From NCBI GenBank assembly GCA_000403315.2, contig KE159636.1, positions 1,463,740-1,527,739 on the forward strand: a DNA stretch of 64,000 nucleotides, read 5' to 3'. Made by a program: the position numbers and the translations under genes. This stretch comes from Lachnospiraceae bacterium A2 (GTDB taxonomy: Bacteria; Bacillota; Clostridia; Lachnospirales; Lachnospiraceae). Shown piece after piece: positions 29,176 through 44,097 of this stretch. The notes under the pieces were generated by a model that worked only from the letters and a program-made list of their open reading frames with translations, searched no databases and was not told the DNA's origin. Each line of letters starts with the position of its first letter. The first letter of the stretch is position 1.

Positions 29176-29297
29176 CGGAAAGTTGGTTCTTGAGGAATTT
29201 AAGCAAATTCCAGTTTATCAAGCCACGTTTTCAATTAAATACCACCAGCACAAAACCGCTGCTACATGAAAACATATACCATGCAACAGCGGTTTTC

Positions 29298-29949
29298 TTA
29301 TTTCCGTTTCTTCCTCTGGCTGACATAACTTTTGAAGAATTTCGATTTTTCAAGGATATGTACAAGCTGCCGGAACTCCATATCAGACAGCTTGTTATAA
29401 TTGATACCCAGCCGCTTGCACAGTAAAGCGCAGCCTGTATTCGTCATCCTCAATATGTGCAGCCCGTAAAATCCGGAAGTGCGGGTCATCTTCCCCAGGG
29501 CGGTAGCGTTCTATAATTTCGTGCCGGATAGTATCAACAAGGGAGTTGAGGTTTTGAATCTGCATGGAAGCAATCCCATCCACATAAACCTCAATGTCAG
29601 CCAGAAACTTTATAAAATCCTTGTGGGTGGCAATTTCGCACAGCAGGCGGTTGTTAATCCGGCCACTTTTCAGAAGCGCAACCATTTCGTCATTCAAATG
29701 CAGTTCTGTTAAAGGCGTGTTGGCCTGCTCCCTGTTTTCCGTCAGGCATAACAGATAATCAATGGACACCCCATAAAAATCTGCCAGCGTGATAAGGTTG
29801 CCATGATTGATTTCTTTATTATCTTTGGATTCATAGCTGGCAAGGGCAGATTTTAAAATCTGCGTCAGTCGTGCCAGTTCTTCCAGATTAAGCCCTTTGT
29901 CCTTGCGCAGTTCCCAAAGGCGTTCCTGTATGGTAGTCGCTCCTTTCAT
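29298..29949 (-). pseudogene. XRE-family regulator with a late frameshift
   Basis: It starts at 29949 (MKGATTIQERLWELRKD) after AAAGGAG. An N-terminal Cro/C1 helix-turn-helix (NLEELARLTQILKSALASYE with LADFYGVSIDYLLCL) leads to a ~110-residue C-terminal domain of the Tn1549-type regulators. After DDEYRLRFTVQ the frame ends in AGYQL*, whereas the expected continuation (CKRLGINYNKLSDMEFRQLV...VSQRKKRK) is in the next frame, reaching 29298. A one-base change near 29427 is the likely cause. The DNA-binding part remains intact, so a shortened repressor could still act. Confidence 0.75.
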
Positions 29950-30479
29950 GGGCGCACGCTCCTTTCTGGCGGCTGCTTCCCTGCCGCCTGACTGGATTAT
30001 ACCATACTTTCCACAATCGTGGAAATTTCCGATATTTGCCCTTAATTCTTTTTTTGTGGACATACGGCACAAGGCTAAAAATGTTCTATGATACAGGTAA
30101 GTTCATCGATGGATTATTCCAATCGAATGACCGGCCTGTATGGGATATGCTCCCCGGCGATGTAACGCAACGACTTCCGGCAGGGAAACGGAGGAACCCT
30201 GACCGCAACGAGCGTACCAAGGAGAGCGAAACGCCGCCAAAGACGGGGGCAGGAACGACAGCAGAGGGAACCGGCAAAAACGAACACCAAAACGATACCG
30301 AAACACAACAATTTCACAGGGCATAGTCTGCCCTGCCCGTAATACCAAGGGAGATTTTGGGGCGGCTCTACGGCTGGATTTTCTCTGAAAATCGCCCCGA
30401 AACGCTACACAAAAAACCACTACCCGCCCATTCCGGCTGTTACTGATGAATCGGGCGGTTTTTCTATGAAGGAGGCACC
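29950..30479. other. Conjugative-element non-coding region
   Basis: No gene is supported here. Repeated purine-rich text (30180-30310) and several hairpins are present. The last, 30422-30464, reads CCGCCCATTCC ... GAATCGGGCGG followed by TTTTTC, and looks like a terminator just upstream of the next small gene. Confidence 0.4.
30422..30464 (+). terminator. Stem-loop terminator
   Basis: The arms CCCGCCCATTCC and GAATCGGGCGG are followed by TTTTTCT. Confidence 0.55.
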
Positions 30480-30671
30480 ATGCCGAGAATGTCAAAAAAG
30501 CGGAAGAAAGAGCTTGCTTTCTTCCTGAACGACCGGGGGCGCAGAAGCTACAACGGACTTTGCCGGAAATGCCAGCATGAGTGCAAGCAGAGTTTCAGGG
30601 CTGTCATGATCGACTGCCCCCGTTACCAATCCAAACGAGCCAAAAGGAGGACACCACCGAATGAATTGTGA
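30480..30671 (+). CDS. Small Cys-containing basic protein of conjugative elements
   Basis: This is 63 residues with a strong GAAGGAGGCACC ahead of the ATG. It is Lys/Arg-rich, with CRKCQHECKQ and a later Cys (DCPRYQSKRAK) that could form a zinc knuckle. Similar small proteins precede the replication initiator gene in Tn1549-like elements. It overlaps that gene's start by 11 bases. Function unknown. Confidence 0.65.
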   Translation: MPRMSKKRKKELAFFLNDRGRRSYNGLCRKCQHECKQSFRAVMIDCPRYQSKRAKRRTPPNEL

Positions 30672-31005
30672 ATTTATGGTAGCCAGTACACCCCTGCCGC
30701 CCTGTATGCCGCTCCCAAAGGCAATGCTCCCTCTTCCGGTCAGCAATAGGGCAAAAGTCATGTATGCCCGCCTGCTGGATGAAATCCTGACAAGGGGGAA
30801 CCCCGGACTGCAACGGGATTCTGTTTATCCGCTTCCCCGTCATGGAGATAGCGGCGGCACTCTCCCGAAGCCCCCAGACCTGCAAGCGTTCCCTGAACGA
30901 GCTGGAACAGGCCGGGATAATTATGCGTGTCCGTCAGGGAATCGGGGAGGTCAGCCACATCTATATCCTGCTCTCCAGGGAGGATACCGCCCATGAATGG
31001 GAAGC
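30661..31005 (+). pseudogene. Replication-initiator-like protein (RepA-type) with frameshift
   Basis: MNCEFMVASTPLPPCMPLPK and LPVSNRAKVMYARLLDEIL are the standard start of the small RepA-like winged-helix proteins of Tn1549-type elements. After about 30800 the frame shifts. The continuation, NGILFIRFPVMEIAAALSRS with SLNELEQAGIIMRVRQGIGEVSHIYIL (helix-turn-helix), is in the +1 frame. Its normal stop cannot be located because that frame runs open into the next gene. Confidence 0.75.
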
Positions 31006-31187
31006 TGGAAAAACTGAATCAGGAGATGGAAAAGACCGAAGCAAGGCTGGAAAGCCATCTCCCCCACCCGGAATCCGTGACGGACGGGCAGGTCAGCACC
31101 ATCTTAAAAATACTGTTCCACCGGGGCGACACGAAGCGTCTTGTGGCACAGGCTCTTACCGAAAACCGGAAGGAGGACACGGAATGA
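30993..31187 (+). CDS. Small hypothetical protein of conjugative elements
   Basis: This 64-residue alpha-helical protein starts at 30993 (MNGKLEKLNQEMEKTEARLE) with AGGGAGG upstream. It overlaps the following gene by 4 bases (ATGA), which indicates translational coupling. It is recognisable only by position, between the initiator-like and transfer-assisting genes. Confidence 0.6.
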   Translation: MNGKLEKLNQEMEKTEARLESHLPHPESVTDGQVSTILKILFHRGDTKRLVAQALTENRKEDTE

Positions 31188-31699
31188 AATTTTCAAAAAG
31201 CGAGCTGGATATTATCTGCCAGTATGCCGCACCGACCAAGGCGGAAACCCTTGCGGGCATGAAAGAAACCGTGCCGGTGATAAAGGACTTACTGACAAAG
31301 GCAATCGTGGAGAACGCCATCCGGAAACTGGAAAAGATACCGGAGCCAGAGTGCAGCCGGTTTGTTGCCGCCACGAAAGCCCGGTTCCTTGCGGAGCGTG
31401 ACAATTCCATCCGCCAGCGGCTTGCGGCAGCAAAAATGCAGGAGCCGATTATGCAGGGGCATGGCCTGTCAGGGGAAGAACGGTTTCTGCCACAGACCCG
31501 GCACATGATTACACTGGAAGTACAGAAAGACTGCTTTGTCGGTTTTAAGGGGGAGCGGTTCCGTTTCTTCCTCTCCGATGAAGGTTACTGGAACGCAAAG
31601 CGCAGCGAACAGGAAGGGGAAATCAAGATAAAGAGCCATGCCGCCGTTGTTGCCGGAAAGCTCTATCCTGACAAGAAGCCCAGACAGCAGGAACGGTAA
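31184..31699 (+). CDS. Conserved conjugative-element protein (transposon-transfer-assisting-like N-terminus)
   Basis: It starts at 31184 (MKFSKSELDIICQYAAPTK) with AAGGAGG 7 bases upstream and encodes 171 residues. The first ~70 residues resemble the short transposon-transfer-assisting proteins. The rest (SRFVAATKARFLAERDNSIRQRLAAAK, ERFLPQTRHMITLEV, RFFLSDEGYWN) is a conserved extension in Tn1549-like elements with no assigned activity. It is intact and ends 55 bases before the inverted repeat of an IS4-type element, which therefore ended this operon. Confidence 0.65.
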   Translation: MKFSKSELDIICQYAAPTKAETLAGMKETVPVIKDLLTKAIVENAIRKLEKIPEPECSRFVAATKARFLAERDNSIRQRLAAAKMQEPIMQGHGLSGEERFLPQTRHMITLEVQKDCFVGFKGERFRFFLSDEGYWNAKRSEQEGEIKIKSHAAVVAGKLYPDKKPRQQER

Positions 31700-31754
31700 A
31701 AACGGCAGAAAAACGGAAAGCCGGAAAATCCCCCTCTGAAAGAGGGCGCAGAAC

Positions 31755-33362
31755 CAACGTCCACTGGATAATGTCATTAAGTTTAACGGAAGAAGACAAC
31801 AAAAACAGCATATATGTTATATGATTTAAATTTTCACGCATAGCAAACAAACAGATTAGAATCTGTCTGTGTATGATAATTAGATGTTGGGCTATCGGTA
31901 TAAAAAACTTGCCTTTTCCCATATTTTGACTTTGCGGGGACTGTTTCTGCTGGGACGTATTGGAAGCATATATTGCATTATTACAGCCTCAACATCAGGC
32001 GGATCATCTGCTTTACACACCAGGAAATGCCTGCATTCCCTGATGGCTCTGGAGAAATTAATTTGATGGATGTATTTCCTCTTTTTCCTTTTCTACGCCA
32101 CATGCATGGTAATTACCGAACAGAAATTATATATGATTGCTTTTGCAAATATTTCCTGATGTATGTGAGCCGTCTTTTTGGAGTGCAGCTTATTTAGTGA
32201 CAGCGTATGCTTTAATTCCCGGAATGAAGTTTCGATGCCCCATCTCATGGCGTACAGTCCCTTGATTTCCTACATTGAAAATTATGAGGGAAAAAGATTG
32301 GTAAGCAGTGATTCATATTTGTCTTTACCAATCTGTATTCTGGCCAGACGGAAACCAATGGGAAAAACGCCTTTTTCGCCGGGAGATATAAAATCAAATG
32401 TAACATTTGTCGCCATTGTGCGGAACCGTTCCGGTTGCTTTTTATTAATGCATCTTTTTAGACGTGTCAGATTAATGGAGAGATTCATGTCAGCTTCCCC
32501 AACAGTCTGATTGATGTGAAATGTATGAAGGATTCCGTTACTGGTAATGTCTTTTGCACGAATCACATATTTCAGGTTCCAATGCTGGGCATAGGCAAGT
32601 ATATTCCAACTTACATAGTTGCGGTCAGCAATGAATATGCATTTGTCATCCGCAGTATAGGCTTTCATGAAATCAACGAGGGCACGCTGTTCGTTCTGCC
32701 CATGCCGTCCGACAATATGCAGCATCTGGTAACTTCTGTTGCAGAGGTCATACAGGGCATTGATGTGCAGTACGTTGAAGCCTTTGCCATTTGACGAGTT
32801 TCTGTAATAGGAAGCTGGGTCACTGGGGTTGCGGAAAATGTTGATGTCAGAGCCATCGCATGCCAGCAGACGGTAATCTTTATACTTTATTTTTCCTGGA
32901 TACCAGCAGTTAAAGCACCTAAGGGTTTCAGGGAAATATACCGGACTGATTTTGTCTCTCTGCTGTGTTAAAGCTGATACAGTCGGGGTGTATTCTGCAT
33001 GATTATAAAAATCCAAAAGTTCGTCCTGTGCAGACTGCCCTGACATAGAAGGAAGAAAATGAGTGGTTTTTCCAATGAAAGCTTTCGGTTTCTAACGAAA
33101 TCAGTTTGTGGATTCTTGACATAATTTTTTCTGTTATCTGAAATATCATGGATAAGATTATATAGATTTTGTTTGGCTTTTGTTGCAAATTTCATAATGT
33201 GCCTCCTTGTAATTCAATTTATATATTTCTAATTACAAGGGCCGCTTTCGCTTCTTTTAAATCACAGTAAGCGAAAGCGGTCGCACATTTTCAGTCCTGT
33301 GTCAAGTGCTTTTTTGATTTTTTCAAACTTCTAAACTTAATGACATTATCCACTGGACGTTG
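31755..33362. mobile_element. Degenerate IS4-family insertion sequence
   Basis: The terminal inverted repeats are about 29 bp: CAACGTCCACTGGATAATG (from 31755), then TCATTAAGTTTA, and the inverse at the right end up to 33362 with one mismatch. Total 1608 bp. The only gene is a dead transposase. A GGACGTTG beyond the right end repeats the terminal text, so the exact target duplication is unclear. Confidence 0.85.
31892..33195 (-). pseudogene. IS4-family transposase with frameshift and internal stops
   Basis: The minus strand starts MKFATKAKQNLYNLIHDISD at 33195. A frameshift near 33065 leads to MSGQSAQDELLDFYNHAEYTP. DDE residues lie in LLACDGSDINI and CIFIADRNYVSW. After LLTNLFPS there are in-frame stops (TAA near 32282, TAG near 32270). 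The frame then resumes with EIKGLYAMRWGIETSFRELKH, the IS4 Y-(2)-R-(3)-E-(6)-K signature, and meets a further stop near 32090. No active transposase is possible. Confidence 0.88.
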
Positions 33363-33576
33363 TGCGTCCTGCGGACAGCAGATGATTTCCGTAGATTTTT
33401 AATCTGCTTCAATCATCACAGGGGAAGCTATCCTTCCCCTGCGCTGGCTTTGCCAGCTACCCCTTTGTAGAACTTAACGCCTGAAAATTTTTCAGAGAGC
33501 CTATTCCATTTAGCAAGTTAAGGCTGTATAATAGAGCAAGTGACAAATCGGAATTGATATGACGAAAGGAGATATT
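33196..33576. other. Intergenic: IS right end and upstream region of the iron-sulfur gene
   Basis: The first half belongs to the IS4-type element (to 33362), including an imperfect inverted repeat CCGCTTTCGCTT / AAGCGAAAGCGG at 33242-33281. The rest has a GGGGAAGC...GCGCTGGC hairpin-rich stretch. No gene seen. Confidence 0.4.
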
Positions 33577-34266
33577 ATGATTGATAATAAACAGGTCAAA
33601 GAAATTCTGTTTGGATTAGGAGCAGATTTATGTGGAATAGCGAGTATAGATAGATTTAATGACGCCCCTAAAGGGTATCATCCTATGGATGTTTTACCAA
33701 CTTGCAAATCGGTTATTTCTTTTGGATGTAGATTTCCGATAGGAACTCTAAGCTGCAATTCTCCTGTACCTTATACAAGAGTGAGAAATTCTATTACGCC
33801 CAAAATGGATGCAATTGCTCTTGATTTTTGCATTGAAATGGAAAAATATCAAATCGTTTGTGTACCAGTTCCAACAAATGAAAGCCAATGGGACGAAAAC
33901 ACTAAGAGATGGCGTTCTATTATTTCTCAAAAGCATGCGGCACAGGCAGCGGGATTAGGTACGATAGGGAGACATTCTTTGCTTATTACACCAGAATTTG
34001 GAAGTATGGTTTGGTTGGGAGCAGTTTTGTGTGAACAAAAATTAGAGTGTGACAAGTTAAAAGATAATATTTGTAATAACTGTAATGCCTGCGTAAACAT
34101 ATGTCCAGTAAATGCGTTAGAACATCTAGAGTTAGAGCAACAGGCATGTTGGGATTATGCCTTTGGTGATGATAAAACAATACAAAGCTGGGTGATAAGT
34201 TGCCACAAATGTAGAGATATTTGCCCTTATAATTTAGGAACAGAAAATTCGTTTATAAAGAAGTAG
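33577..34266 (+). CDS. Double [4Fe-4S] cluster protein related to epoxyqueuosine reductase
   Basis: This 229-residue protein has its start at 33577 (MIDNKQVKEILFGLG) after AAAGGAG. It has the QueG-like N-terminal region (GADLCGIASIDRF, VISFGCRFP), a cobalamin-domain-like middle with KHAAQAAGLGTIGRHSLLITPEFG, and two ferredoxin clusters (CNNCNACVNICP and CHKCRDICPYN). It is shorter than QueG (about 310-380), and similar short proteins are annotated only as 4Fe-4S binding. A reductive, corrinoid-linked activity is possible. AT content is higher than in the 1-25 kb region, in line with an accessory origin. Confidence 0.82.
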   Translation: MIDNKQVKEILFGLGADLCGIASIDRFNDAPKGYHPMDVLPTCKSVISFGCRFPIGTLSCNSPVPYTRVRNSITPKMDAIALDFCIEMEKYQIVCVPVPTNESQWDENTKRWRSIISQKHAAQAAGLGTIGRHSLLITPEFGSMVWLGAVLCEQKLECDKLKDNICNNCNACVNICPVNALEHLELEQQACWDYAFGDDKTIQSWVISCHKCRDICPYNLGTENSFIKK

Positions 34267-34375
34267 ACCAATTTCAGTTGATATTCCACTTATTTTAGGA
34301 AATTTAATAACTATTATATTTGATTATCAAATTCTTCGCAAACCCTTGAAAACACTAAGTTTGTAGCAAGTGTAC

Positions 34376-34452
34376 TTTCCCTTACTCTTTCCCTTGTGTT
34401 ACATTCTCCCATTAGCTTTCATGAACCTTAATATGGGAAAAATTAAGGGAAA
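34376..34452. repeat. Left-end repeat cluster of the mobilizable element (candidate integrase arm sites)
   Basis: TTTCCCTTACTCTTTCCCTTGTG (34376-34398, two direct TTTCCCTT units) is followed by an inverted AATTAAGGGAAA at 34441-34452. The same order occurs just beyond the integrase gene at 43909-43959. Matching clusters at both ends suggest integrase arm-type sites and place the left end near here. The crossover core itself was not found. Confidence 0.55.
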
Positions 34453-34565
34453 GAAAATTTCATAACACAGTATAACATATAACAATAACAACATGGTGAA
34501 CTGATTGAAATGTTTTCGATATTTAACTCTATAACTGATTATTAAAAAAATGGAGATAAGATACG

Positions 34566-34802
34566 ATGAGAACAATATTTGCAGAATACAATTCACACAG
34601 AAACAGCATTGATGTTTATACCAATGCCGGTTATATGCTCCGCATTGACTGTTGGGAAGCTGAGAAGAACTTAAAAACCACTCCTGGATCAGACTGCGCA
34701 TTAAATACACTTGCTATTGATGAGCCACTTGAATATGCACGATTATATCTTGATGGTAATATGCAAATGTGGGTAGATGCAGAAGATTCTTTGGAATTGT
34801 AA
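34566..34802 (+). CDS. Small DUF6061-like protein
   Basis: This 78-residue acidic protein (MRTIFAEYNSHRNSIDVYTNAGYMLRIDCWE...) is preceded by TGGAGATAAG. It resembles the DUF6061 group, small proteins found repeatedly in Clostridia mobile elements, with no known function. It is single and monocistronic, followed directly by a clear terminator. Confidence 0.7.
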   Translation: MRTIFAEYNSHRNSIDVYTNAGYMLRIDCWEAEKNLKTTPGSDCALNTLAIDEPLEYARLYLDGNMQMWVDAEDSLEL

Positions 34803-34805
34803 ACC

Positions 34806-34848
34806 ACAAGTAGCCTGTATGCTTTATTTTACATACAGGCTACTTAAT
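34806..34848 (+). terminator. Terminator after the DUF6061-like gene
   Basis: AAGTAGCCTGTATG (34808-34821) pairs with CATACAGGCTACTT (34831-34844) around an AT loop; T-poor tail. A perfect 14-bp stem. Confidence 0.75.
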
Positions 34849-34920
34849 CAAAATCACCATAATTGATCAAGCAAGTTTTTTTAATATACCTCGGAGTCAT
34901 TTTCGTTCGATCTTTCATCG

Positions 34921-35556
34921 CTAATAAAATTTCTCTGAAGTGATAGCAGATAACAGATTGGCAGGTTTTTCTAAAAAATAATCTGCTTTTATGTGCTTAT
35001 TATGACTGCCCCATACTGCTAAAGCAAAATCAATTCCCGCATTTTCCGCACATTTACTGTCATATTTGCTATCTCCGATATAAAGTACTTTCCTATGGTC
35101 TGTTTTTGATAATTCCACATATTTCAAAATCGGTGCGGCATTGGGTTTATGTTCCTGTGTATCGTCTGCACATATGATTGTTTTGAAATAATGACTGATA
35201 CCAAACGGACAAAAATCATGTGTAAATTCTTCCCTTGTCTTTGATGTGACAATCCCCATTTCATAATCCAGACTTAGAAGATTTTTCAATAATTCAACGA
35301 TTCCGTCAAATACTTTAATGTTATTTGTATAGTTACGCATATTTTTATCCCATAATTCTATCGCATAGGAAGTGTCTTTTATCGCAAGTTTTTTCAAAGC
35401 GTCTGTTCCTGTAATCCCTAACGCAAATCTTAGTTCAGAACATGGTATCTCTCTCCCGGACAATCCCTTTATAGTTTCCTGTAAAGAATGTAATACAGCA
35501 TATTCCGTATCAATCAGAGTGCCGTCAATGTCAAAAACGATATGCTTATACTTCAT
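34921..35556 (-). CDS. HAD-family phosphatase (phosphoglycolate phosphatase-like)
   Basis: This 211-residue HAD hydrolase starts at 35556 (MKYKHIVFDIDGTLIDTEYA) with AAAGGTGG upstream. Motif I is FDIDGTLID; motif II is GIVTSKTR; motif III lies around HKPNAAPILKYVE; motif IV is LYIGDSKYDSKCAENAG. A helical cap (about 16-80) is present. The substrate is unknown; PGP/beta-phosphoglucomutase-type phospho-sugars are usual. Its start overlaps the end of the O-acetyltransferase gene by 11 bases, so they form an operon on the mobilizable element. Confidence 0.88.
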   Translation of the reverse strand: MKYKHIVFDIDGTLIDTEYAVLHSLQETIKGLSGREIPCSELRFALGITGTDALKKLAIKDTSYAIELWDKNMRNYTNNIKVFDGIVELLKNLLSLDYEMGIVTSKTREEFTHDFCPFGISHYFKTIICADDTQEHKPNAAPILKYVELSKTDHRKVLYIGDSKYDSKCAENAGIDFALAVWGSHNKHIKADYFLEKPANLLSAITSEKFY

Positions 35557-36148
35557 GCTGCCACCTTTCCCTGTCTGTATCAAAATAACGTATCACCCTG
35601 CATGGATTTCCTACTGCAACACAATTAGGCGGGATAGGGCGGGTAACTACACTTCCAGCCCCTATCACGCTGTTTTTTCCTATAGTGACTCCGGGCAGAA
35701 GAATACAGCCGCCGCCAATCCAGACATTACTTTCTATTTCTATCGGACGTGCATAGGTTCTAAAAAATGTTGTCTGACGTTCCCTCCAATCCGGCACAAA
35801 CCTTTCCTGTGGTAAGACAGGGTGTGAAGATGTATAAATCTGCACATTTGACGCAATCAATACCCTGTCGCCAATTCGGATAGTTTTGTTATCCACAAAG
35901 GTACAATTCATATTGACGATCACATCATTTCCCAAAAAAATATTTTTTCCATAGTCGCAATGAAAAGGCGTGTCGATTGCCACATTTTCCCCTATTCCGC
36001 CCAACAGCTCCCGAAGAATGGAAGTGCGTTTTTCTGTATCTCCATAATCAGAAAAATAATATTTCCGTGTTAATTCCCTTGTGCGGGCAATCTGCTTTAA
36101 CGTATCGCTGTCCGCTGTTTCCAAAAAATCACTGGATTCGTAATACAC
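35546..36148 (-). CDS. Left-handed beta-helix O-acetyltransferase (maltose/galactoside acetyltransferase-like)
   Basis: This 200-residue trimer-type enzyme transfers acetyl from acetyl-CoA to sugars. The N-terminal Mac domain is YYESSDFLETADSDTLKQIARTRELTRKYY. The hexapeptide region includes FHCDYGKNIFLGNDVIVNMNCTFVD, SSHPVLPQERF and ARPIEIESNVWIGGGCILLPGVTIGKNSVIGAGSVVT. The HPV motif contains the catalytic-type His. Length is normal. It is cotranscribed with the HAD phosphatase gene and follows a broken HD-domain gene by 11 bases. Confidence 0.9.
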   Translation of the reverse strand: MYYESSDFLETADSDTLKQIARTRELTRKYYFSDYGDTEKRTSILRELLGGIGENVAIDTPFHCDYGKNIFLGNDVIVNMNCTFVDNKTIRIGDRVLIASNVQIYTSSHPVLPQERFVPDWRERQTTFFRTYARPIEIESNVWIGGGCILLPGVTIGKNSVIGAGSVVTRPIPPNCVAVGNPCRVIRYFDTDRERWQHEV

Positions 36149-36159
36149 AATATCCCCCC

Positions 36160-36759
36160 TTAACGAAAACTGTTTTCCATAACGCCCGGAAGCAGGGCAT
36201 AGATAGAACAGCCAATCTGATCCTCAAACCGTTCTTTAATCTCTAAAATCTTTTTCCATCTGTCTATTGTCGCTGGGTGAACGCCGTATCGCATTGTCAC
36301 GTCTACAAATCTCTTTTCCAAAAGACAGAACCCCGAAGGCATAGCCAATGCGTCACATAACTGTACAAGACGGTCATAATCATCATATACCGCATTTGCA
36401 ACAAATTCTTTCATAAACAGGTAATCCTCATCACTGACATCAAACTCTCCGATAGATGTGGCAATATCCTGTATCATAAATGCGTGGGATATACATATTT
36501 GTGCGGCTTTTCCTCACCCACGCTCCATACAGTAACGATAGCCGTCTATCAGATGCCTTTCCGAACTCACTCCGGCATAACGTCCAATATCGTGTAACAG
36601 CCCGAAAATATACGCCTGTTCAGAAGATAAATCTTTACAGTGTGACGCAATGTTTTTACAGGCTTCGGCTACATACCGGGAATGTTCTGCCCATGCTCCC
36701 GGATTGGATTCTGCCGCTTCCCTTAATGCCAGTTCTGCGGTCTGAATGTTCAACTCCAT
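36160..36759 (-). pseudogene. HD-domain phosphohydrolase with an in-frame nonsense codon
   Basis: It starts at 36759 (MELNIQTAELALREAAESNP) with AAAGGAG upstream. The HD core is WAEHSRYVAEACKNIASHC then FGLLHDIGRYAG with the His-Asp pair. After RYCMERG an in-frame TGA at 36514-36516 stops translation; the same frame continues GKAAQICISHAFMIQDI through to 36160. Only one lesion is seen in 199 codons, so inactivation is recent, or the codon is a sequencing error. It precedes the acetyltransferase and phosphatase genes on the same strand. Confidence 0.8.
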
Positions 36760-36835
36760 TTTTAACTCCTTTCAAAAGGGCGGGGCTGGAAGATAAACTG
36801 TCCAGCCCCTTTATGATGAAATATTTACAGATAAA

Positions 36836-37075
36836 TCAGCAATCCCCGGCATAGTACGAAACAATGTTCATATAGTCCGTTGGATTCGGAACTTCTAAAA
36901 CAAGCCGCAAACAGTTTTTGTTTTGGGAGTATTGCCGCCACAAACTGCCCTGTATCTTTTCTTCCCCATTGATGTTTTGTTTTTTACCATCCGGGCAGAG
37001 CATATTTACTTTGCCGGAACAGCTATTGACCGTATCTAAAAAATTTTTCATGTTCAGAATGTTCAGTTTTACCAC
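36836..37075 (-). CDS. Small acidic protein of the 'polya polymerase'-misnamed family
   Basis: This 79-residue protein starts at a GTG (37075) placed 10 bases after AGGAGGTGAG. The pattern NFLDTVNSCSGKVNMLCPDGKK, SLWRQYSQNKNCLRLVLEVPNPTDYMNIV fits a family of small clostridial proteins often mislabelled polyA polymerase. No catalytic motif is present. It lies between the HD gene and the AraC regulator gene, on the same strand. Confidence 0.6.
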   Translation of the reverse strand: MVKLNILNMKNFLDTVNSCSGKVNMLCPDGKKQNINGEEKIQGSLWRQYSQNKNCLRLVLEVPNPTDYMNIVSYYAGDC

Positions 37076-37163
37076 TTTGCACTCACCTCCTGTAAATGAC
37101 GGATTTACTTTACAGGTATCATTATAATGCAAAAGGAATAGAAAAAATATTTCTTTTCTGCCC

Positions 37164-38075
37164 TTATCTATCACTATTCTGCCATTTTCTCCGATATTCT
37201 GTGGGTGAACAATGTGTGTATTCTCGAAAAACCTTTCCAAAATAACTGCTACTCCCCAAACCGCACTCATGGCTGATAACGGTAACTGCTTCCTGCCCCT
37301 TTGCTAGCATCTGACAGGCAGCTTGCAGACGGTAAGCCTTTATATACTCTACGGGTGTCATGTGCAGACAGTCATGGAACACTCTATAACACTCCCTTTC
37401 GCTTAGGTATGCTGCTGCCGCAAGTTCCGGGATAGAGATTTTCTCTCTGTAATGTTCGTGAATATATATCATCATCAGCTTTATTTTATCGTTGCTTTTA
37501 TTATGTTCCCCCTTTTTTTCACGCATAGGACGGGATAGTTCAAAAAGCATGAGCCATATTTCTGTTAGGGTTTCCCGCAGTTTTATTTCATATCCAAATT
37601 CATCACTGGATAAACGAAATGAAGCGGCAAGCAGTTTCAAAATCCTTTCTTCTTCTGCATTGCCTGGAAAAAGCGGAATTACCTCAATCTGTGGGGCTGT
37701 TATGATAGGCGCAATATATTTTTGTTCAATCCTGCTTCCCTGTTCCCCGGCAAGTAGGGAAACATCGAAAATATGAAGTAGCTGTATATTCTTTTCTTTC
37801 TGCGATATTGCTTTTGTCATATGGAGTACATTGGAATTTACTATGCCGCCGCTTCCAGCCGGAAACAACAGTTTTCCTCCCGGCGTATCATATTCAATGC
37901 TACCACTTTCCATATAAAAAAGTTCCACTGTCTTGTGCCAGTGCCACGGTACATAATGTCCGATATACTTGTCAAGTTCTGCCCTTGAAGCGATATAGGG
38001 AAAATCTTTTTCAAAACCGGGAAGCAGTTCTTCCTTGCTTCCAGTATAAAATTCAATGCTATGGATATTTTTCAT
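37164..38075 (-). CDS. AraC-family transcriptional regulator
   Basis: This is 303 residues. A cupin-like sensor domain (about 1-160: HYVPWHWHKTVELFYMESGSIEYD, GGIVNSNVLHMTKA) is followed by two helix-turn-helix motifs (about 205-300): ISIPELAAAAYLSERECYRVFHD, MTPVEYIKAYRLQAACQMLA, and VISHECGLGSSSYFGKVFREYTHCSPTEYRR. It probably activates the cargo genes read in the same direction (36.8 to 34.9 kb). The inducing ligand is unknown. Confidence 0.9.
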   Translation of the reverse strand: MKNIHSIEFYTGSKEELLPGFEKDFPYIASRAELDKYIGHYVPWHWHKTVELFYMESGSIEYDTPGGKLLFPAGSGGIVNSNVLHMTKAISQKEKNIQLLHIFDVSLLAGEQGSRIEQKYIAPIITAPQIEVIPLFPGNAEEERILKLLAASFRLSSDEFGYEIKLRETLTEIWLMLFELSRPMREKKGEHNKSNDKIKLMMIYIHEHYREKISIPELAAAAYLSERECYRVFHDCLHMTPVEYIKAYRLQAACQMLAKGQEAVTVISHECGLGSSSYFGKVFREYTHCSPTEYRRKWQNSDR

Positions 38076-38298
38076 GTCTGTTCACCTGCACATCTGCGAT
38101 TTTGTATCTGCTTTATGGATTAAATATACTAGAATAGCTCGGTAATTGTCAATCAATCAAAACAGATTCATTTGGAAGATTATAAAAAATAGTGTTAAAA
38201 ATCAAAGAACAGTTTTCACAGACTCTAAAAATCTGGATAACTAAAAATAAGTATATTTGTTTTGTGAAAAACAGGCAGTTTTACCTGCCCATTTTACT

Positions 38299-39267
38299 TT
38301 AAAAATATCCTCGTTTTTCTCGCCAGTTTTTCACATAACATCGGATTCCGATATAAACCGCATGTACCAGAAGTAGCAACATAATGAGGTTTATCGGAAT
38401 AATTGATTTTATCCATTTTCCGAAATAGATTATGATAGCTGTACTCATTATCACCACCATGATGCTGATAATATTCCAGCAATATTTCCGGTAGATTTTC
38501 CCCACCTGATAGCCAGTCCCGATTATCAGCAATCCCGTTATGATAAATAAAATTCCCATAACAATACTTACAATCAGCCAGTACACAATCCCTGAAATGA
38601 TACTATTTGAGATTCCACTGCTTAACTGTCCGAAAGAATCTGCACCTGCAACAAATTTTTGAAACAGGCTTAAGATTCCTTTAGCAAACATACTGAAAAA
38701 GCTAATACAGTCACTAAAGAAAACTGGAGAAAGGATAGCAGTGAATAGTGTAATGGCTATACTGTACCATGCCAGCAGAAACAGGATACTTTCATAACCA
38801 GCCGTCATATTTTTATATTTTTTCTCTAACTGAATTTTACGGTTATCGCATTTTTCTTTTGCTTTTTGGTAAGCAGTGCGGTCACAGTTATCGCATTTCT
38901 CATAGGGCACTTTTTTCTCAACAGCTACCTCTGTTGTCTTTTGGTGTGTCTGTGCATAGCGTTTTGCCTGTTCCGCTTTTTCATACCTAAATTTCCATGC
39001 CACGACTTCTGCGTCGGCTCTTTTCCTGCTGTCTGTCTCGTTGGCTAATTGTTCTTCTATTTTCCTTAATCTTGTCCGCAATGCTTCGATATTCTCGACT
39101 CTGTTTTCGCTGTTCAATTTCTCGTTCAAGGTCAGCGATCTGTTTAGCTGCCTGTTCAGTTCCATAATCATCTGGTCTTTCTGATCCAGTTCGTCCTGCA
39201 TCTGTTCTGTCATCTGTAGAAGTTCTTCCACTTGACCGACGTTCTCTAAGTTTACGCATTCTCGCAT
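38299..39267 (-). CDS. Coiled-coil membrane protein (DUF6040-like) whose start is nested in the relaxase gene
   Basis: This 322-residue protein has a long coiled coil (about 1-130; EELLQMTEQMQDELDQKDQM...), a Cys motif (KCDNCDRTAYQKAKEKC), then four membrane segments (about 165-315; for example SILFLLAWYSIAITLF, YWLIVSIVMGILFIITGLL, IISIMVVIMSTAIIIYF, NLIMLLLLVHAVYIGI). It resembles the DUF6040 group of mobile elements. The ATG at 39267 is 7 bases after GTGAGGG. Bases 38987-39267 also encode the C-terminal end of the relaxase in a different frame, so both proteins share that DNA. Confidence 0.75.
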   Translation of the reverse strand: MRECVNLENVGQVEELLQMTEQMQDELDQKDQMIMELNRQLNRSLTLNEKLNSENRVENIEALRTRLRKIEEQLANETDSRKRADAEVVAWKFRYEKAEQAKRYAQTHQKTTEVAVEKKVPYEKCDNCDRTAYQKAKEKCDNRKIQLEKKYKNMTAGYESILFLLAWYSIAITLFTAILSPVFFSDCISFFSMFAKGILSLFQKFVAGADSFGQLSSGISNSIISGIVYWLIVSIVMGILFIITGLLIIGTGYQVGKIYRKYCWNIISIMVVIMSTAIIIYFGKWIKSIIPINLIMLLLLVHAVYIGIRCYVKNWREKRGYF

Positions 39268-40708
39268 CTATATCCCTCACTTTCTCTATCTGCTGTTTAA
39301 GGTCAGTAATTCTCTGCTCTGTTTCAGCAATAAGCTGTTCTCGTTGTTCAGCTTCTGCGTTAATTCCTGCCATTGCTGATTCTCGGTTTCCAACTGTTCG
39401 GTTCTGTTTTTCTGCTGTTCGATCTGGGAAAGCAGTTCTTCTGTATCTGGCAAAAGATTCAGCAGTCCGGATAACTCGCTGTTTAATATCTGCAAACTCT
39501 GGTTCTGCTCCTGAAAGGACAGAAGCTGTCTGTCTTTTTCCTGTAATTCCTGTACCATCTCTGCCATAAGGTTCTGCTGTTCCTCGATCTGGTTTATCAT
39601 TGATTCCATCATGGGAATGACTTCCCGGCTTTCTTCTAATGTCATTTAATCGCTCCTTCCATAATGATAATGCACCTGATACTTTTCCAAAGGTGTCCAG
39701 TATCTTTTGCAATAACGTGTTTTGCTGTTTTATGATTTGATTTTCCGCTACTTTCCACGAACCTTTTATTTCCTGCCCGGCAAGAAATTTTTGTTCAATC
39801 TTTCTTGCGTCAGCACCTTCATGGATGGTAGGAATCTGGAGTTTTCCCTGTTTTTCATAAGAACGGTGATCAACCTGATTATGCAAAGGAAGATGTTCAT
39901 TACACACCTTTGCCCACTCACTCCGCCACAGCTCACAATTTTTGGGATTGTTCCATCCAGTAGCATCGGTCAGCACCCGTTTCCATTGCAGGCGGTTTCT
40001 TGCACCAATCTTCTGGATTCCGTTTTCGTCTAATACAGGGATACGGATTCCATGACGGTCAGGGTTTTTCTTATCCTGCCACCAGTCCGGGTGGGATTCG
40101 TCAATCACGATATTTCCGCTTTTATCTCTGACAAAATCCCAATCCTTGACTTCTTTCTTTCCCCAAGAATGATCCGGGTTAAAAGGTCGCATCGTCAGAA
40201 GCAGGTGGACATGGGGGTTGCCATCCCCTTTGTCGTGGATACTCCAATCAGCACACATTCCCTTATCCACAAATGTTTTTTGGATATAGTCGGCTGTATA
40301 TTGAATCTGTTCCTGTCTGCTCCATTCTTTTGGGAGGGCAAATTCAAATGACCTGCCAAGTTGGGCATCCGCACTTTTTTCAATCTTCAATACCTCATTC
40401 CATAATCTTTGTTTCTGAAATGTGATTTTGAATTTTTCTAAAGCAGCTTCTTTATCTTCTGACCTTTTGTAGCGGACAGATTTTTGAAAGCGTTTTATAT
40501 TTTCTTCTGGTACTATCTGCCATTCAGGAGGTGCGTTTTCACACATCATCAGACTGGTGTAGACCACTTCTTTTTTAGAAGTGTAATAACTGATTCTCCC
40601 GGTTTCCTCGTTTTTCATCACATCCCCATTGAGATATGCGGAAGCGGAGATAACAGATTTCCCTTTACTTCGTCCGACTATTTTGATTGTGTAATGAAAA
40701 ATCGCCAT
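38987..40708 (-). CDS. mobA: MobA/MobL-type (MOBQ) relaxase
   Basis: This 573-residue relaxase nicks oriT and leads the transferred strand during mobilization. The start at 40708 (MAIFHYTIKIVGRSKGKS) follows GAAAGGAGG by 8 bases. The N-terminal MobA/MobL domain has VISASAYLNGD, the family's SA-x-AYR-like motif with the presumed catalytic Tyr, and the HUH histidines in IHDKGDGNPHVHLLLTMRPF. The C-terminal third is Lys/Arg/Glu-rich and also encodes parts of two other proteins in another frame. Genes for a DUF3847 protein and an oriT lie just upstream, the standard order. Confidence 0.92.
   Translation of the reverse strand: MAIFHYTIKIVGRSKGKSVISASAYLNGDVMKNEETGRISYYTSKKEVVYTSLMMCENAPPEWQIVPEENIKRFQKSVRYKRSEDKEAALEKFKITFQKQRLWNEVLKIEKSADAQLGRSFEFALPKEWSRQEQIQYTADYIQKTFVDKGMCADWSIHDKGDGNPHVHLLLTMRPFNPDHSWGKKEVKDWDFVRDKSGNIVIDESHPDWWQDKKNPDRHGIRIPVLDENGIQKIGARNRLQWKRVLTDATGWNNPKNCELWRSEWAKVCNEHLPLHNQVDHRSYEKQGKLQIPTIHEGADARKIEQKFLAGQEIKGSWKVAENQIIKQQNTLLQKILDTFGKVSGALSLWKERLNDIRRKPGSHSHDGINDKPDRGTAEPYGRDGTGITGKRQTASVLSGAEPEFADIKQRVIRTAESFARYRRTAFPDRTAEKQNRTVGNRESAMAGINAEAEQREQLIAETEQRITDLKQQIEKVRDIDARMRKLRERRSSGRTSTDDRTDAGRTGSERPDDYGTEQAAKQIADLEREIEQRKQSREYRSIADKIKENRRTISQRDRQQEKSRRRSRGMEI
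39286..39645 (-). CDS. 119-residue coiled-coil protein wholly nested inside the relaxase gene
   Basis: It is read in the +1 frame relative to the relaxase. GGAAGGAGCGATTAA stands directly before the ATG at 39645, which is a strong ribosome site. The product (MTLEESREVIPMMESMINQI...) is almost entirely predicted coiled coil with heptads of Leu and Gln/Glu. It ends 18 bases before the next gene, which is in the same frame and starts with its own site. The site, the clean frame and the operon spacing make this a probable true gene rather than a shadow. Function unknown; a partner of the relaxase or the following membrane protein is possible. Confidence 0.65.
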   Translation of the reverse strand: MTLEESREVIPMMESMINQIEEQQNLMAEMVQELQEKDRQLLSFQEQNQSLQILNSELSGLLNLLPDTEELLSQIEQQKNRTEQLETENQQWQELTQKLNNENSLLLKQSRELLTLNSR

Positions 40709-40929
40709 ATCTGGATTCCTCCTTTCTGCACATCCGGTATAGATTTCCGGCAACATTGCTTTCGATTTTAGAAAAGGCAGCATTGCCAGAACGCCCTCTG
40801 CGTAAGAGTGCCCTGCGCATAGCAGCCTGCATGGAATGCGCCTCTCTGGCGAAGAGTGCCTCCTGTGGCATGAGCAGGTCTGGCTGAAAGCCCCGCCGAC
40901 GGAACGAGCCCGGCAAGCGTGAGCGCAGA

Positions 40930-40992
40930 CCGGTTGCCACTTGTGGCAAACTTATTGGGACGACCTCTGGTTGTCCATAAGTGCGCCCTTCA
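40930..40992. other. Origin of transfer (oriT) with MOBQ-type nic sequence
   Basis: TAAGTGCGCCCTT at 40978-40990 matches the nic region known from RSF1010/pSK41-type plasmids (TAAGTGCGCCCT). Just before it, ACTTATTGGGACGACC (40950-40965) and GGTTGTCCATAAGT (40969-40982) form an imperfect inverted repeat. A small palindrome TTGCCACTTGTGGCAA lies at 40934-40949. The position between the DUF3847 gene and the relaxase gene is as expected. The sequence match is seen; the exact nick is inferred from the family. Confidence 0.85.
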
Positions 40993-41035
40993 TGAAAAAG
41001 CAATGAAGGGAATGAAAAACTCATCCCCTCCGCCA

Positions 41036-41350
41036 TTACACTTCCTCCATATCGGTATTTGTTTCTTTCTGCATTGCCTTTGAGAAAAATTTCCCATTGG
41101 CTTCCTGCTTTTTCAGAAAACCAATCAGCTTTGGGATGTCTTCCTCCTCAATAGTCGCACCAAGAACGGATTCCACCGCACCGCCAACCTGACAGAGCCT
41201 ATGGGTTCGTTTTTTACTTTCTTCGGCTTTCTTTCGTTTTAGAAGTTCTTTCTTCTGTGCTGCATATCGTTTTGCTTTTTCAAGGCTTTCCTGTTCCTTC
41301 TTTTCCATTTCAAACATTCGTTCTTCATAACTTTTTGTTGATTTTGCCAT
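41036..41350 (-). CDS. DUF3847-family protein of mobilizable elements
   Basis: This 104-residue protein has AAAGGAG 8 bases before the start. It is a charged coiled coil (YEERMFEMEKKEQESLEKAKRYAAQKKELLKRKK) followed by a compact helical part (CQVGGAVESVLGATIEEEDIPKLIGFLKKQ). DUF3847 proteins are almost always encoded just upstream of MobA/MobL relaxases with oriT in between. They may act as relaxosome accessory factors, but this is not proven. Confidence 0.85.
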   Translation of the reverse strand: MAKSTKSYEERMFEMEKKEQESLEKAKRYAAQKKELLKRKKAEESKKRTHRLCQVGGAVESVLGATIEEEDIPKLIGFLKKQEANGKFFSKAMQKETNTDMEEV

Positions 41351-41490
41351 TCTTACATTCTCCTTTCCTTCACAAACATAAGTTCTCGGTTGCGTATCAG
41401 AAGAAGCACATGGTATAATCTTCTTGCGTGTAGGTATATCATGGCTTCGGTCTGATAGAACCTTTGGCGGTTTCTTCGGAAGCCGCCTTT

Positions 41491-41721
41491 TTAATTTGCC
41501 GCAGTTCTTGTTACGGCTTTTACATTTCCTCTATCCCTCAAATCACGACCTTCATTAGCTTCCATAAACATTTCCAGAATATCGGTTTTAATCAGGACTT
41601 TGCGACCAACCTTTAATACTGGAAGTTTCTTCCATTCTACAAGCTGTCTTAAGGTATTTCTGCCGATTCCCGTATAGTCAGCAGCTTCTTCGATGGATAA
41701 TGCAATTTTTCTTTGCGTCAT
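41491..41721 (-). CDS. xis: Excisionase (MerR-like winged helix, Tn916 Xis-type)
   Basis: This 76-residue DNA-binding protein has AAGGAGG 7 bases before the ATG. The sequence IALSIEEAADYTGIGRNTLRQLVEWKKLPVLKVGRKVLIKTDILEMFME is the excisionase helix-turn-helix plus wing. It bends DNA at element ends to direct the tyrosine integrase toward excision. It is divergent from the XRE repressor gene, and the shared spacer carries repeated operator-like palindromes. Confidence 0.88.
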   Translation of the reverse strand: MTQRKIALSIEEAADYTGIGRNTLRQLVEWKKLPVLKVGRKVLIKTDILEMFMEANEGRDLRDRGNVKAVTRTAAN

Positions 41722-41740
41722 ATAATCACCTCCTTATAAA

Positions 41741-41862
41741 TTGCATTATGCAATTCTTGTGATGTAAGTATATCCTTTTCATATCTTTTTGTCAAGCGTT
41801 ACGAAATATCAAAAACAAACTTTATGTTGCATATTGCAATTTTGGAAAAACAATGCTATAAT
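41741..41862. promoter_or_regulatory. Divergent promoter/operator region between xis and the repressor gene
   Basis: On the plus strand, TTGCAA (41834-41839), a 17-base spacer and TATAAT (41857-41862) form a strong promoter 31 bases before the repressor start. The palindrome TTGCATATTGCAA (41827-41839) overlaps its -35 box. A sister palindrome TTGCATTATGCAA (41741-41753) lies 20 bases from the excisionase start. The pair is well placed for the XRE protein to control both directions. Boxes are seen; binding is inferred. Confidence 0.7.
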
Positions 41863-41892
41863 TCATACATACCGAAAAAGGAGGCAGTCAGC

Positions 41893-42522
41893 ATGAAAGA
41901 TAAAGAACTACGCAAGCTGATAGGCAGCAGAGTAAAACAGCGCCGTCTGGAATTGAATCTGACACAGCCTTATGTCGCAGAAAAGATGGGGGTTACCGCT
42001 TCTACAATCCTGCGTTATGAGAATGGTTCGATTGACAATACGAAAAAAATGGTGCTGGAAGGTCTTTCGGAAGCACTCCATGTATCTGTGGAATGGCTCA
42101 AAGGGGAAACAGATGAATATGAAACCGACATTACGGATAAGAGAGAGTTACAGATTCGTGATGCGATGGGAGATATTCTGGAACAGTTACCGCTTGCCCT
42201 TACCAAAGAAGAAGATGCTTTTTCAAAAGATTTATTACTGCTGATGTTAAAACAATATGGTCTGTTTTTGGATTCCTTCCAGTTCGCCTGTAAAAATTTC
42301 AAGGGGAATGCTGGTCAGACGGATATTGCCAAAACAATAGGGTTTGAATCGAATGAGGAATATAATGAGATTATGTTCTTAAGGGAAATCACTCCTACCA
42401 TCAATGCTCTTAATGAGATGGCAGACGTTGTAAGGCTCTATTCCAAGAAACCAAAAACAGCAGAACAAAGGCTTGCAAATCTTTTATCAGAAGTCTTATA
42501 CGAAGATTCCGAATCGGTATAG
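41893..42522 (+). CDS. XRE-family repressor of the mobilizable element
   Basis: This 209-residue protein starts at 41893 (MKDKELRKLIGSRVKQRRLE) after AAGGAGG at 8 bases. A Cro/C1 helix-turn-helix (LNLTQPYVAEKMGVTASTILRYENG...LSEALHVSVEWLKG, about 15-65) is joined to a ~140-residue helical C-terminal domain for sensing or oligomerisation. There is no peptidase motif, so control is not LexA-like. It lies between xis and int and probably represses both. Confidence 0.86.
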   Translation: MKDKELRKLIGSRVKQRRLELNLTQPYVAEKMGVTASTILRYENGSIDNTKKMVLEGLSEALHVSVEWLKGETDEYETDITDKRELQIRDAMGDILEQLPLALTKEEDAFSKDLLLLMLKQYGLFLDSFQFACKNFKGNAGQTDIAKTIGFESNEEYNEIMFLREITPTINALNEMADVVRLYSKKPKTAEQRLANLLSEVLYEDSESV

Positions 42523-42608
42523 TAAGACAACCGGAGTTATGATATACTTACACGCACGAAGCATTTCATCAGTTCCGATTGTCTAATATCGAAAGGAGAT
42601 ATACGATT

Positions 42609-43904
42609 ATGGCAAAAGGATCTGTAAGAAAAAAAGGAAAGAAATGGTACTACCGCTTCTATGTAGAGGACGCAAGCGGCAATCTTGTTCAAAAAGAATG
42701 CGTTGGAACAGAAAGCAAAAGTGAAACTGAAAAGCTGCTCCGTCAGGCAATGGATGATTATGAAAAAAAGAAATTTGTTGCCAAAGCGGAAAATCTCACA
42801 GTCGGACAACTTCTGGATGTGTGGGCAGAGGAGGAATTAAAAACAGGTACGCTCAGCAATGGTACTGTGGAGAATTACCTCGGAACAATCCGAAATATCA
42901 AGAAACACCCATTGGCAGAACGGAAATTAAAAAATGTAACCTCTGAGCATTTGCAATCCTTCTTTGATTTGCTTTCCTTTGGGGGAGTTCATCCCGATGG
43001 AAAAGAGAAAAAGGGTTACAGCAAAGATTACATCCATTCTTTTTCCGCAGTCATGCAGCAGTCCTTCCGCTTTGCAGTATTTCCAAAACAGTATATTACG
43101 TTCAATCCCATGCAGTATATTAAACTGCGGTATCAGACGGACGAAGTTGATTTGTTTTCGGATGAGGACATGGACGGAAATATCCAACCAATTTCACGAG
43201 AAGATTATGAAAGACTGCTTACGTATCTTCAAAAAAAGAACCCAGCCGCAATACTTCCAATCCAGATAGCCTATTATGCCGGGCTTCGTATTGGAGAAGC
43301 CTGTGGTTTGGCATGGCAGGACGTAAATCTGGAAGAACAATGCCTTACCATAAGACGCAGCATCCGATATGATGGCTCAAAACGCAAATATATCATCGGA
43401 CCAACCAAGCGGAAAAAAGTGAGGATTGTTGATTTTGGAGATACGCTGGTAGAGATTTTCCGTAATGCCCGGAAAGAGCAGTTAAAAAATCGAATGCAGT
43501 ATGGAGAACTTTATCACACGAACTACTACAAAGAGGTCAAAGAGAAAAACAGAGTGTACTACGAGTATTATTGCTTAGACAGAACAGAGGAAGTCCCGGC
43601 AGATTATAAAGAAATTTCTTTCGTCTGCTTAAGACCTGATGGCTGTCTGGAACTTCCGACTACTTTGGGAACGGTATGCAGAAAGGTAGCAAAAACATTA
43701 GAGGGATTTGAAGGCTTTCATTTCCACCAGTTACGTCACACCTATACAAGCAACCTTTTAGCAAATGGAGCTGCCCCAAAAGATGTGCAGGAATTGTTAG
43801 GACACTCAGATGTCAGTACCACAATGAACGTCTATGCTCACTCCACAAGAGATGCGAAACGAAAATCGGTTCGGCTTCTTGATAAAGTGGTAGGCAATGA
43901 CTAA
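42609..43904 (+). CDS. int: Tyrosine recombinase/integrase (Tn916 Int-like)
   Basis: This 431-residue integrase starts at 42609 (MAKGSVRKKGKKWYYRFYVE) with GAAAGGAG upstream. The N-terminal arm-binding three-stranded domain (about 1-60) is followed by a SAM-like core-binding domain (about 62-180) and the catalytic domain (about 195-430). Catalytic residues are Arg in GLRIGEACGL, His-x-x-Arg in FHQLRHTYTSN, His in ELLGHSDVSTT and the Tyr nucleophile in MNVYAHS. It sits at the right end of the mobilizable element with repeat clusters just beyond its stop. Confidence 0.94.
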   Translation: MAKGSVRKKGKKWYYRFYVEDASGNLVQKECVGTESKSETEKLLRQAMDDYEKKKFVAKAENLTVGQLLDVWAEEELKTGTLSNGTVENYLGTIRNIKKHPLAERKLKNVTSEHLQSFFDLLSFGGVHPDGKEKKGYSKDYIHSFSAVMQQSFRFAVFPKQYITFNPMQYIKLRYQTDEVDLFSDEDMDGNIQPISREDYERLLTYLQKKNPAAILPIQIAYYAGLRIGEACGLAWQDVNLEEQCLTIRRSIRYDGSKRKYIIGPTKRKKVRIVDFGDTLVEIFRNARKEQLKNRMQYGELYHTNYYKEVKEKNRVYYEYYCLDRTEEVPADYKEISFVCLRPDGCLELPTTLGTVCRKVAKTLEGFEGFHFHQLRHTYTSNLLANGAAPKDVQELLGHSDVSTTMNVYAHSTRDAKRKSVRLLDKVVGND

Positions 43905-43908
43905 AAAA

Positions 43909-43959
43909 TTTCCCTTATTTCCCTTGTGATTATCTCATAAGGGCAAAAATAAGGGAAAC
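43909..43959. repeat. Right-end repeat cluster of the mobilizable element
   Basis: TTTCCCTTATTTCCCTTGTG (43909-43928) is followed by an inverted ATAAGGGAAA (43949-43958). It mirrors the arrangement at 34376-34452, sharing TTTCCCTTGTG exactly. Candidate integrase arm sites at attR. Confidence 0.55.
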
Positions 43960-44097
43960 TACATATCATTTCACTAATGGACAGGCGGGAAAGCCTATAA
44001 AATGGGGAAAGTTAGAGAGATAATTATATAAATTCCAGTTTATCGGAGGAGGTAGTTAAATAGGGTAATCAATGCTTGTTAAGGAAGTGAGGATAAT

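Follow-up and report, generated by a model that had tools for sequence, protein, structure and literature searches.

Overlapping genes in the 3' third of a Lachnospiraceae relaxase gene encode two likely mobilization adaptors

Lachnospiraceae bacterium A2 carries a probable integrative mobilizable element (contig KE159636.1, assembly GCA_000403315.2), and the relaxase gene of this element, mobA, is the subject of the present analysis. The stretch of DNA analysed, which we call the window, has 64,000 nucleotides and spans positions 1,463,740 to 1,527,739 of the contig. From comparison of sequences, the 3' third of mobA is almost certainly dual-coding, and it is likely that it encodes the tail of MobA together with two accessory proteins, made from their own internal starts, that would serve as mobilization adaptors. 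The first is a small protein whose gene lies wholly within mobA (the nested gene), and the second is a putative membrane protein of the DUF6040 family whose gene begins inside mobA. The adaptor role is a less certain step than the dual coding. To our knowledge, few long same-strand overlaps for which selection on the partner frame was measured have been documented in bacteria; the one described here recurs in Lachnospiraceae and in other Clostridia.

Both partner genes are read in the +1 frame of mobA (Table 1). The start of mobA was taken to be MAIFHY, which gives 573 residues, and the longest open reading frame (ORF) begins at 40783. The first 281 bases of the DUF6040 gene (38987-39267) are common to the end of mobA, 18 bases separate the gene from the nested gene, and the dual-coded DNA amounts to 360 + 281 = 641 bases. 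An earlier sequence-only reading of the window had proposed these coordinates, frames, overlap and gap, with about 640 dual-coded bases, and the ORFs and the sequence bear all of this out. The ribosome site that it placed directly ahead of the nested ATG is the Shine-Dalgarno (SD) sequence GGAAGGAG.

The length of the open frame is weak as evidence, as a +1 run of at least 119 codons appears in 39% of 20,000 within-region synonymous permutations, and in 2% of draws from the codon usage of the whole of mobA. That the frame is open beyond chance is argued instead from its conservation across relatives. These were gathered with the relaxase part only (39700-40708), to avoid bias toward the nested gene; copies of the window (L001, L080) and all rows below 45% relaxase identity were dropped, giving 70 rows including the window, of which some probably repeat one another between the two collections that were combined. 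The nested gene is complete, stop-free and always in the +1 frame in 67 of the 70 rows, and the other three are uninformative, two contigs (L052, L056) ending before the gene and the relaxase match of L053 being interrupted and stopping at residue 230. All 67 keep the motif TGG-R-R-GGRG 7 nt before an ATG or GTG, and they comprise 45 different sequences, which fall into 16 clusters at 90% identity and encode 78-232 aa. The sequence-only reading had held that stops in the +1 frame of relatives, or loss of the ATG or ribosome site, would speak against the nested gene, and neither was seen. An in-frame start follows within 45 nt of the nested stop in 60 of the 67 rows, and the other seven have no DUF6040 match (in L013 the contig ends). 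In seven rows (L014, L033, L034, L057, L058, L087, L089) the mobA match is interrupted by an in-frame stop although the nested frame is open, which may reflect decay or assembly error.

These data bear on two other accounts of the +1 frame. Ribosomal frameshifting from mobA, which would yield MobA-partner fusions, is consistent with both partners lying in the same +1 frame, but is very improbable given an SD and start codon at fixed spacing in all 67 rows and a stop codon between the two partner genes. The notion that codon composition by itself produces the open +1 frames can be practically dismissed, in spite of the 39% of permutations mentioned above and of a survey in which a +1 ORF of at least 70 aa overlaps the relaxase gene in 4 of 30 PF03389 loci (the best-scoring from 148 genomes) and in 7 of 30 PF03432 loci. 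In that survey 2 and 1 of these overlapping ORFs have an SD of at least 5 bases, and the relaxase was taken to be the longest ORF per locus, which is open-ended in 5 and 3 cases. Against a by-product of composition stand the conservation of SD and start over the 16 clusters, and a reversal of codon positions and dNN/dNS ratios well below 1, as follows.

Mean pairwise differences at the three codon positions were calculated for 17 representatives of 39 ungapped mobA genes. At mobA positions 1/2/3 the relaxase part gives.090/.043/.287, the nested part.276/.183/.114 and the DUF6040 overlap.243/.147/.200, the fastest position thus shifting from 3 to 1 in the nested stretch. Since the first position of a mobA codon serves as the third of a partner codon, constraint in the nested part tracks the partner. 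A dual-frame count was then made with our own pairwise script, modelled on OLGenie, on 21 pairs from 7 sequences with related pairs pooled; the intervals come from a bootstrap over codons and retain the relatedness of the sequences. For the partner frames dNN/dNS is 0.31 (0.23-0.41) in the nested gene and 0.48 (0.35-0.66) in the DUF6040 overlap, with 0.70 (0.48-1.08) for the control, the +1 frame of the relaxase part. The dNN/dSN ratios of MobA are 1.20 (0.83-1.83) across the nested stretch and 0.59 (0.43-0.82) across the DUF6040 overlap, against 0.13 (0.09-0.17) for the control.

These ratios indicate that the nested frame is under purifying selection, that both frames are constrained in the DUF6040 overlap, and that no measurable constraint acts on the MobA residues in the nested part, where the mobA frame is nonetheless kept open. 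Conservation limited to the mobA frame, the second outcome that the sequence-only reading had set against itself, was therefore not found, and comparative evidence upholds both partner genes as real. Its proposal that two proteins are encoded at once is supported by selection on both frames in the DUF6040 overlap; in the nested stretch selection supports the nested frame, and for mobA only the absence of stops speaks. The partner genes alone might matter, the MobA tail being a passenger frame that stays open by chance. We regard this as unlikely, although not markedly so, and as compatible with our preferred explanation, which needs only the partner genes: the ratio of 1.20 in the nested stretch and the low AlphaFold confidence over much of the tail (pLDDT 29-51 at residues 361-460, in agreement with the lack of measurable constraint there) favour a passenger, whereas mobA stays stop-free in just 0.1-3.8% of nested-codon permutations of four sequences (2.4-13.6% in the DUF6040 stretch, where the argument is weaker), MobA is constrained in the DUF6040 overlap, and 18 of the 19 overlapped relaxases carry a net basic charge over their last 25 residues (L130 is neutral).

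The relaxase scores well above the curated cut-off of PF03389 (251.3 bits against 26.7, E=1.2e-74), and below that of the NCBIfam MobQ equivalog NF041496 (173.8 bits against 200), to which it is not assigned. AlphaFold predicts a block of pLDDT 72-94 at residues 21-180 of MobA. The second partner exceeds the curated cut-off of PF19506 (355.9 bits against 23.4, E=1.1e-106, residues 90-321), a DUF6040 membership that the sequence-only reading had missed, as it had the swappable nature of the tail described below. As the PF19506 model begins to match at residue 90, most of the overlapped N-terminus of this protein falls outside the model. Its AlphaFold prediction has a helix of 106 residues followed by helices between 131 and 319, with a pTM of only 0.38, and simple hydropathy gives 3-6 peaks among 20 aligned members of the family and 5 in the window protein, so that the earlier description, a coiled coil plus four membrane segments, was about right. 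The nested protein is acidic, has no hydrophobic segment and matches no Pfam family above cut-off; compared by hhalign with the DUF6040 N-terminus, on the idea of a split-gene origin, it gave a probability of 71%, on coiled-coil-like sequence, and the idea was not retained. Neither partner protein has a family in PHROGs. In a PDB sequence search the DUF6040 profile weakly matched three protein A constructs (E 0.003-0.009), and these matches were taken as chance. The word "DUF6040" was found in no paper of the open-access literature searched, where the function of the family is undescribed, and among the matches listed no title or start of an abstract describes the overlap or DUF6040. The present data suggest a tie between this family and DNA mobilization.

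The same arrangement was examined in 18 rows picked by hand from search results. In all 18 the DUF6040 gene starts in +1 relative to the relaxase gene, and the relaxases include both PF03389 and PF03432 types; for L111 and L113 the furthest upstream of the possible starts was used, and their overlap lengths are upper bounds. Profiles confirmed PF03432 in L111, L129 and L130, PF03389 in L112, L113, L131 and L059, and DUF6040 in L111, L129 and L130, the remaining rows resting on tblastn similarity, DUF6040 search or record annotation. Besides these, the +1 layout is seen in one short case without DUF6040 (L132) and in ColE1. The constant +1 frame requires no special cause, because among long bacterial overlaps +1 is reported to be commoner than +2 (PMC2542354) and because partner-frame stops arise less often from the partner proteins of the window in +1 (7.2 per 119 codons and 7.9 per 94) than in +2 (11.2 and 9.9). 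Codon positions were compared in five pairs from other lineages, and in four of them position 1 changes faster than position 3 in the overlap: L112/L115 (overlap.513/.265/.239, outside.261/.181/.610), L131/L133 (.289/.142/.127, outside.254/.221/.452), L128/L131 (.385/.275/.291, outside.232/.138/.486) and, barely reversed, L127/L128 (.378/.327/.357, outside.244/.087/.608).

Comparison with known systems suggests a function. A role in tethering the relaxosome to the membrane and the coupling protein has been ascribed to MbeB and MbeD of ColE1 and to MobB of RSF1010. ColE1, used as a positive control for the layout, resembles the window in having two consecutive accessory genes, mbeB and mbeD, that are separated by 6 bases and lie toward the 3' end of the relaxase gene mbeA, one product with a membrane-like segment and one helical (by eye); in both systems, the accessory genes occupy an alternative frame of the relaxase 3' region, which is +1 in each. 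It differs in that mbeB and mbeD are both wholly inside mbeA with the membrane-type gene first, whereas here the coiled-coil gene comes first and the membrane gene extends beyond the relaxase stop, and in that its relaxase belongs to PF03432 rather than PF03389. The C. difficile plasmid pCD-METRO (ORF3/ORF4) also has a relaxase gene, of PF03432, followed by a +1-frame DUF6040 gene, but no other ORF of at least 60 aa in that frame upstream of the DUF6040 gene inside the relaxase gene. RSF1010 (IncQ), compared through its published description, has an accessory gene in another frame of its relaxase gene as well, although a single one: mobB lies in mobA/repB, and MobB is named there among the activities essential for mobilization (PMC2200642).

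By analogy with these systems, the nested and DUF6040 proteins are most likely relaxosome-membrane adaptors. Ribosomes would enter at the internal SD of the nested gene, and translation of the DUF6040 gene would be coupled to the nested stop. The acidic coiled-coil protein and the membrane-anchored DUF6040 protein could then hold the relaxosome at the membrane and connect it to the coupling protein of a helper conjugation system, on which we infer dependence from the kind of element, and the variable basic tail of MobA may be what the adaptor or the channel of the helper handles. It is quite unlikely that the two proteins are exclusion factors in recipient or donor rather than transfer adaptors; the several membrane helices of DUF6040 would suit such a role, and mbeD, nested in mbeA of ColE1, is described as carrying entry-exclusion activity (PMC2831885), but the cassette stands in cis to relaxases of two Pfam families and is swapped along with the MobA tail, which suggests contact with MobA.

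Several findings weigh against dual coding with an adaptor role, or limit its reach. A Foldseek search with the DUF6040 model returned nothing (best E 6.4). Neither MbeB (PF04837) nor MbeD/MobD (PF04899) was matched at E 0.1, and hhalign gave a probability of 0.2 both for the DUF6040 profile against ColE1 MbeB and for the nested profile against ColE1 MbeD, so that the proteins are likened to the MbeB/MbeD systems without being placed in those families. Six rows with the nested gene (L044, L045, L047-L049, L058) have no DUF6040 match, and the pair is thus not obligatory. The layout is also rare, occurring in 1 of the 30 sampled PF03389 loci (L146, a previously found DUF6040 locus), which does not support it as a general relaxase feature, and of 391 genomes in the class 6 have a DUF6040 match above cut-off. 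Finally, in the fifth of the pairs above, the PF03432-type L111/L114, position 3 is lowered in the overlap but still the fastest (.330/.283/.387, outside.167/.095/.464), and dual constraint is less clear there.

The tail of MobA has been exchanged as a unit with its partners. Where L003 and L026 have different bases, the window agrees with L003 at 206 sites, with L026 at 15 and with neither at 5 before mobA nt 1050, and at 18, 136 and 10 respectively after nt 1100; its DUF6040 protein is 80% identical to that of L026 and 44% to that of L003. The MobA tail, nested gene and DUF6040 gene were therefore exchanged together, leaving the nuclease domain behind, and the overlap makes this linkage obligatory. 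Swapping of the cassette at the start codon of the nested gene points to a way in which mobilizable elements may change their helper system.

The genetic code links the two products further. A Glu or Asp codon of the partner (GAN) is read in the MobA frame as NGA, which is Arg, Gly or stop, and an acidic partner coil would thus force an Arg-rich relaxase tail. In the DUF6040 overlap, 16 of 21 arginines in the window face Glu/Asp codons, as do 12-22 of 17-28 in eight other loci. The last 25 residues of the relaxase hold 6-11 Arg/Lys in the 19 non-ColE1 rows and 3 in ColE1, and 7 of the 19 relaxases end in RGxSR, the window MobA ending in RGMEI. Basic C-terminal signals are known in type IV secretion, and by this likeness the MobA tail may be a secretion signal. 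A more speculative and rather doubtful extension is that the acidic coil and the basic MobA tail bind each other, being made together by overprinting and swapped as a docking cassette by which a relaxase is matched to a new helper, the same solution having been reached with PF03389 and PF03432 relaxases.

All six plasmid stretches that were read have a DUF6040-type frame overlapping the last part of a relaxase-type gene, and in all six records partner genes are missed or listed from a later start. NZ_CP143948 leaves the nested gene unlisted and lists DUF6040 from 6598, with the frame open and an ATG from 6379; in pCD-METRO, NZ_CP084015, pRUMAL04 and HG796312 the listed start of the DUF6040 gene lies further downstream than the open frame would allow; and in LC817945 the DUF6040-type gene is unlisted. 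The gene table of the plasmids describes itself as incomplete. Among viral contigs, nine pattern matches to the nested protein yielded no confirmed case, and seven phage records with partial matches to MobA (23-33% identity) were rejected. As a separate observation, two PF03432 relaxase genes of Clostridia contain +1 ORFs of 71 and 166 aa (L187:684-899 and L191:705-1205, minus strand) with a hydrophobic end, MbeB-like by eye.

Table 1. Features of the mobA locus and its element, in window coordinates
Feature	Position	Strand	Remarks
mobA, MobA/MobL (MOBQ-type) relaxase, 573 aa	38987-40708	minus	nuclease domain at about residues 1-350, variable tail 355-573
Nested gene, 119 aa, acidic, coiled-coil-like	39286-39645	minus	+1 frame, wholly within mobA
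DUF6040 gene, 322 aa	38299-39267	minus	predicted long N-terminal helix (coiled-coil-like) and several membrane helices; +1 frame
Shine-Dalgarno site GGAAGGAG of the nested gene	39653-39660	minus	within mobA codons W-K-E; ends 7 nt before the nested ATG
Recombination switch point	39621-39645	minus	mobA nt 1063-1087, first codons of the nested gene
Integrative mobilizable element, probable extent	29205-44044		15-bp repeat at 29205-29219 and 44030-44044
DUF3847-like gene	41036-41350		just below cut-off
Excisionase-like gene	41491-41721		
Regulator gene	41824-42522		
441-aa ORF	42579-43904		position matches the annotated tyrosine-type integrase of NZ_CP143948

The right end of the element was placed by comparison with related loci, homology to the window ending at 44010-44049 in 16 of the 18 compared; AAACTGGAATTT stands at that junction in 8 of the 11 loci whose junction was inspected, and the flanks beyond differ. 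Because the 15-bp repeat of the right end recurs at 29205, the element is probably 14.8 kb long, its left end being set by the repeat alone. The probable cargo side (29205-38298) holds an AraC-type regulator and, by eye only, acetyltransferase-like, HAD-like and ferredoxin-like ORFs. In five of the relatives mentioned above (L044, L045, L047, L048, L049), where the nested gene encodes 130-232 aa, mobA is followed by excisionase-like and tyrosine-recombinase-like ORFs, again by eye. The window at 42.1-42.45 kb matches two places in a Blautia locus (L012:1-1885), which suggests a duplicated or rearranged element end.
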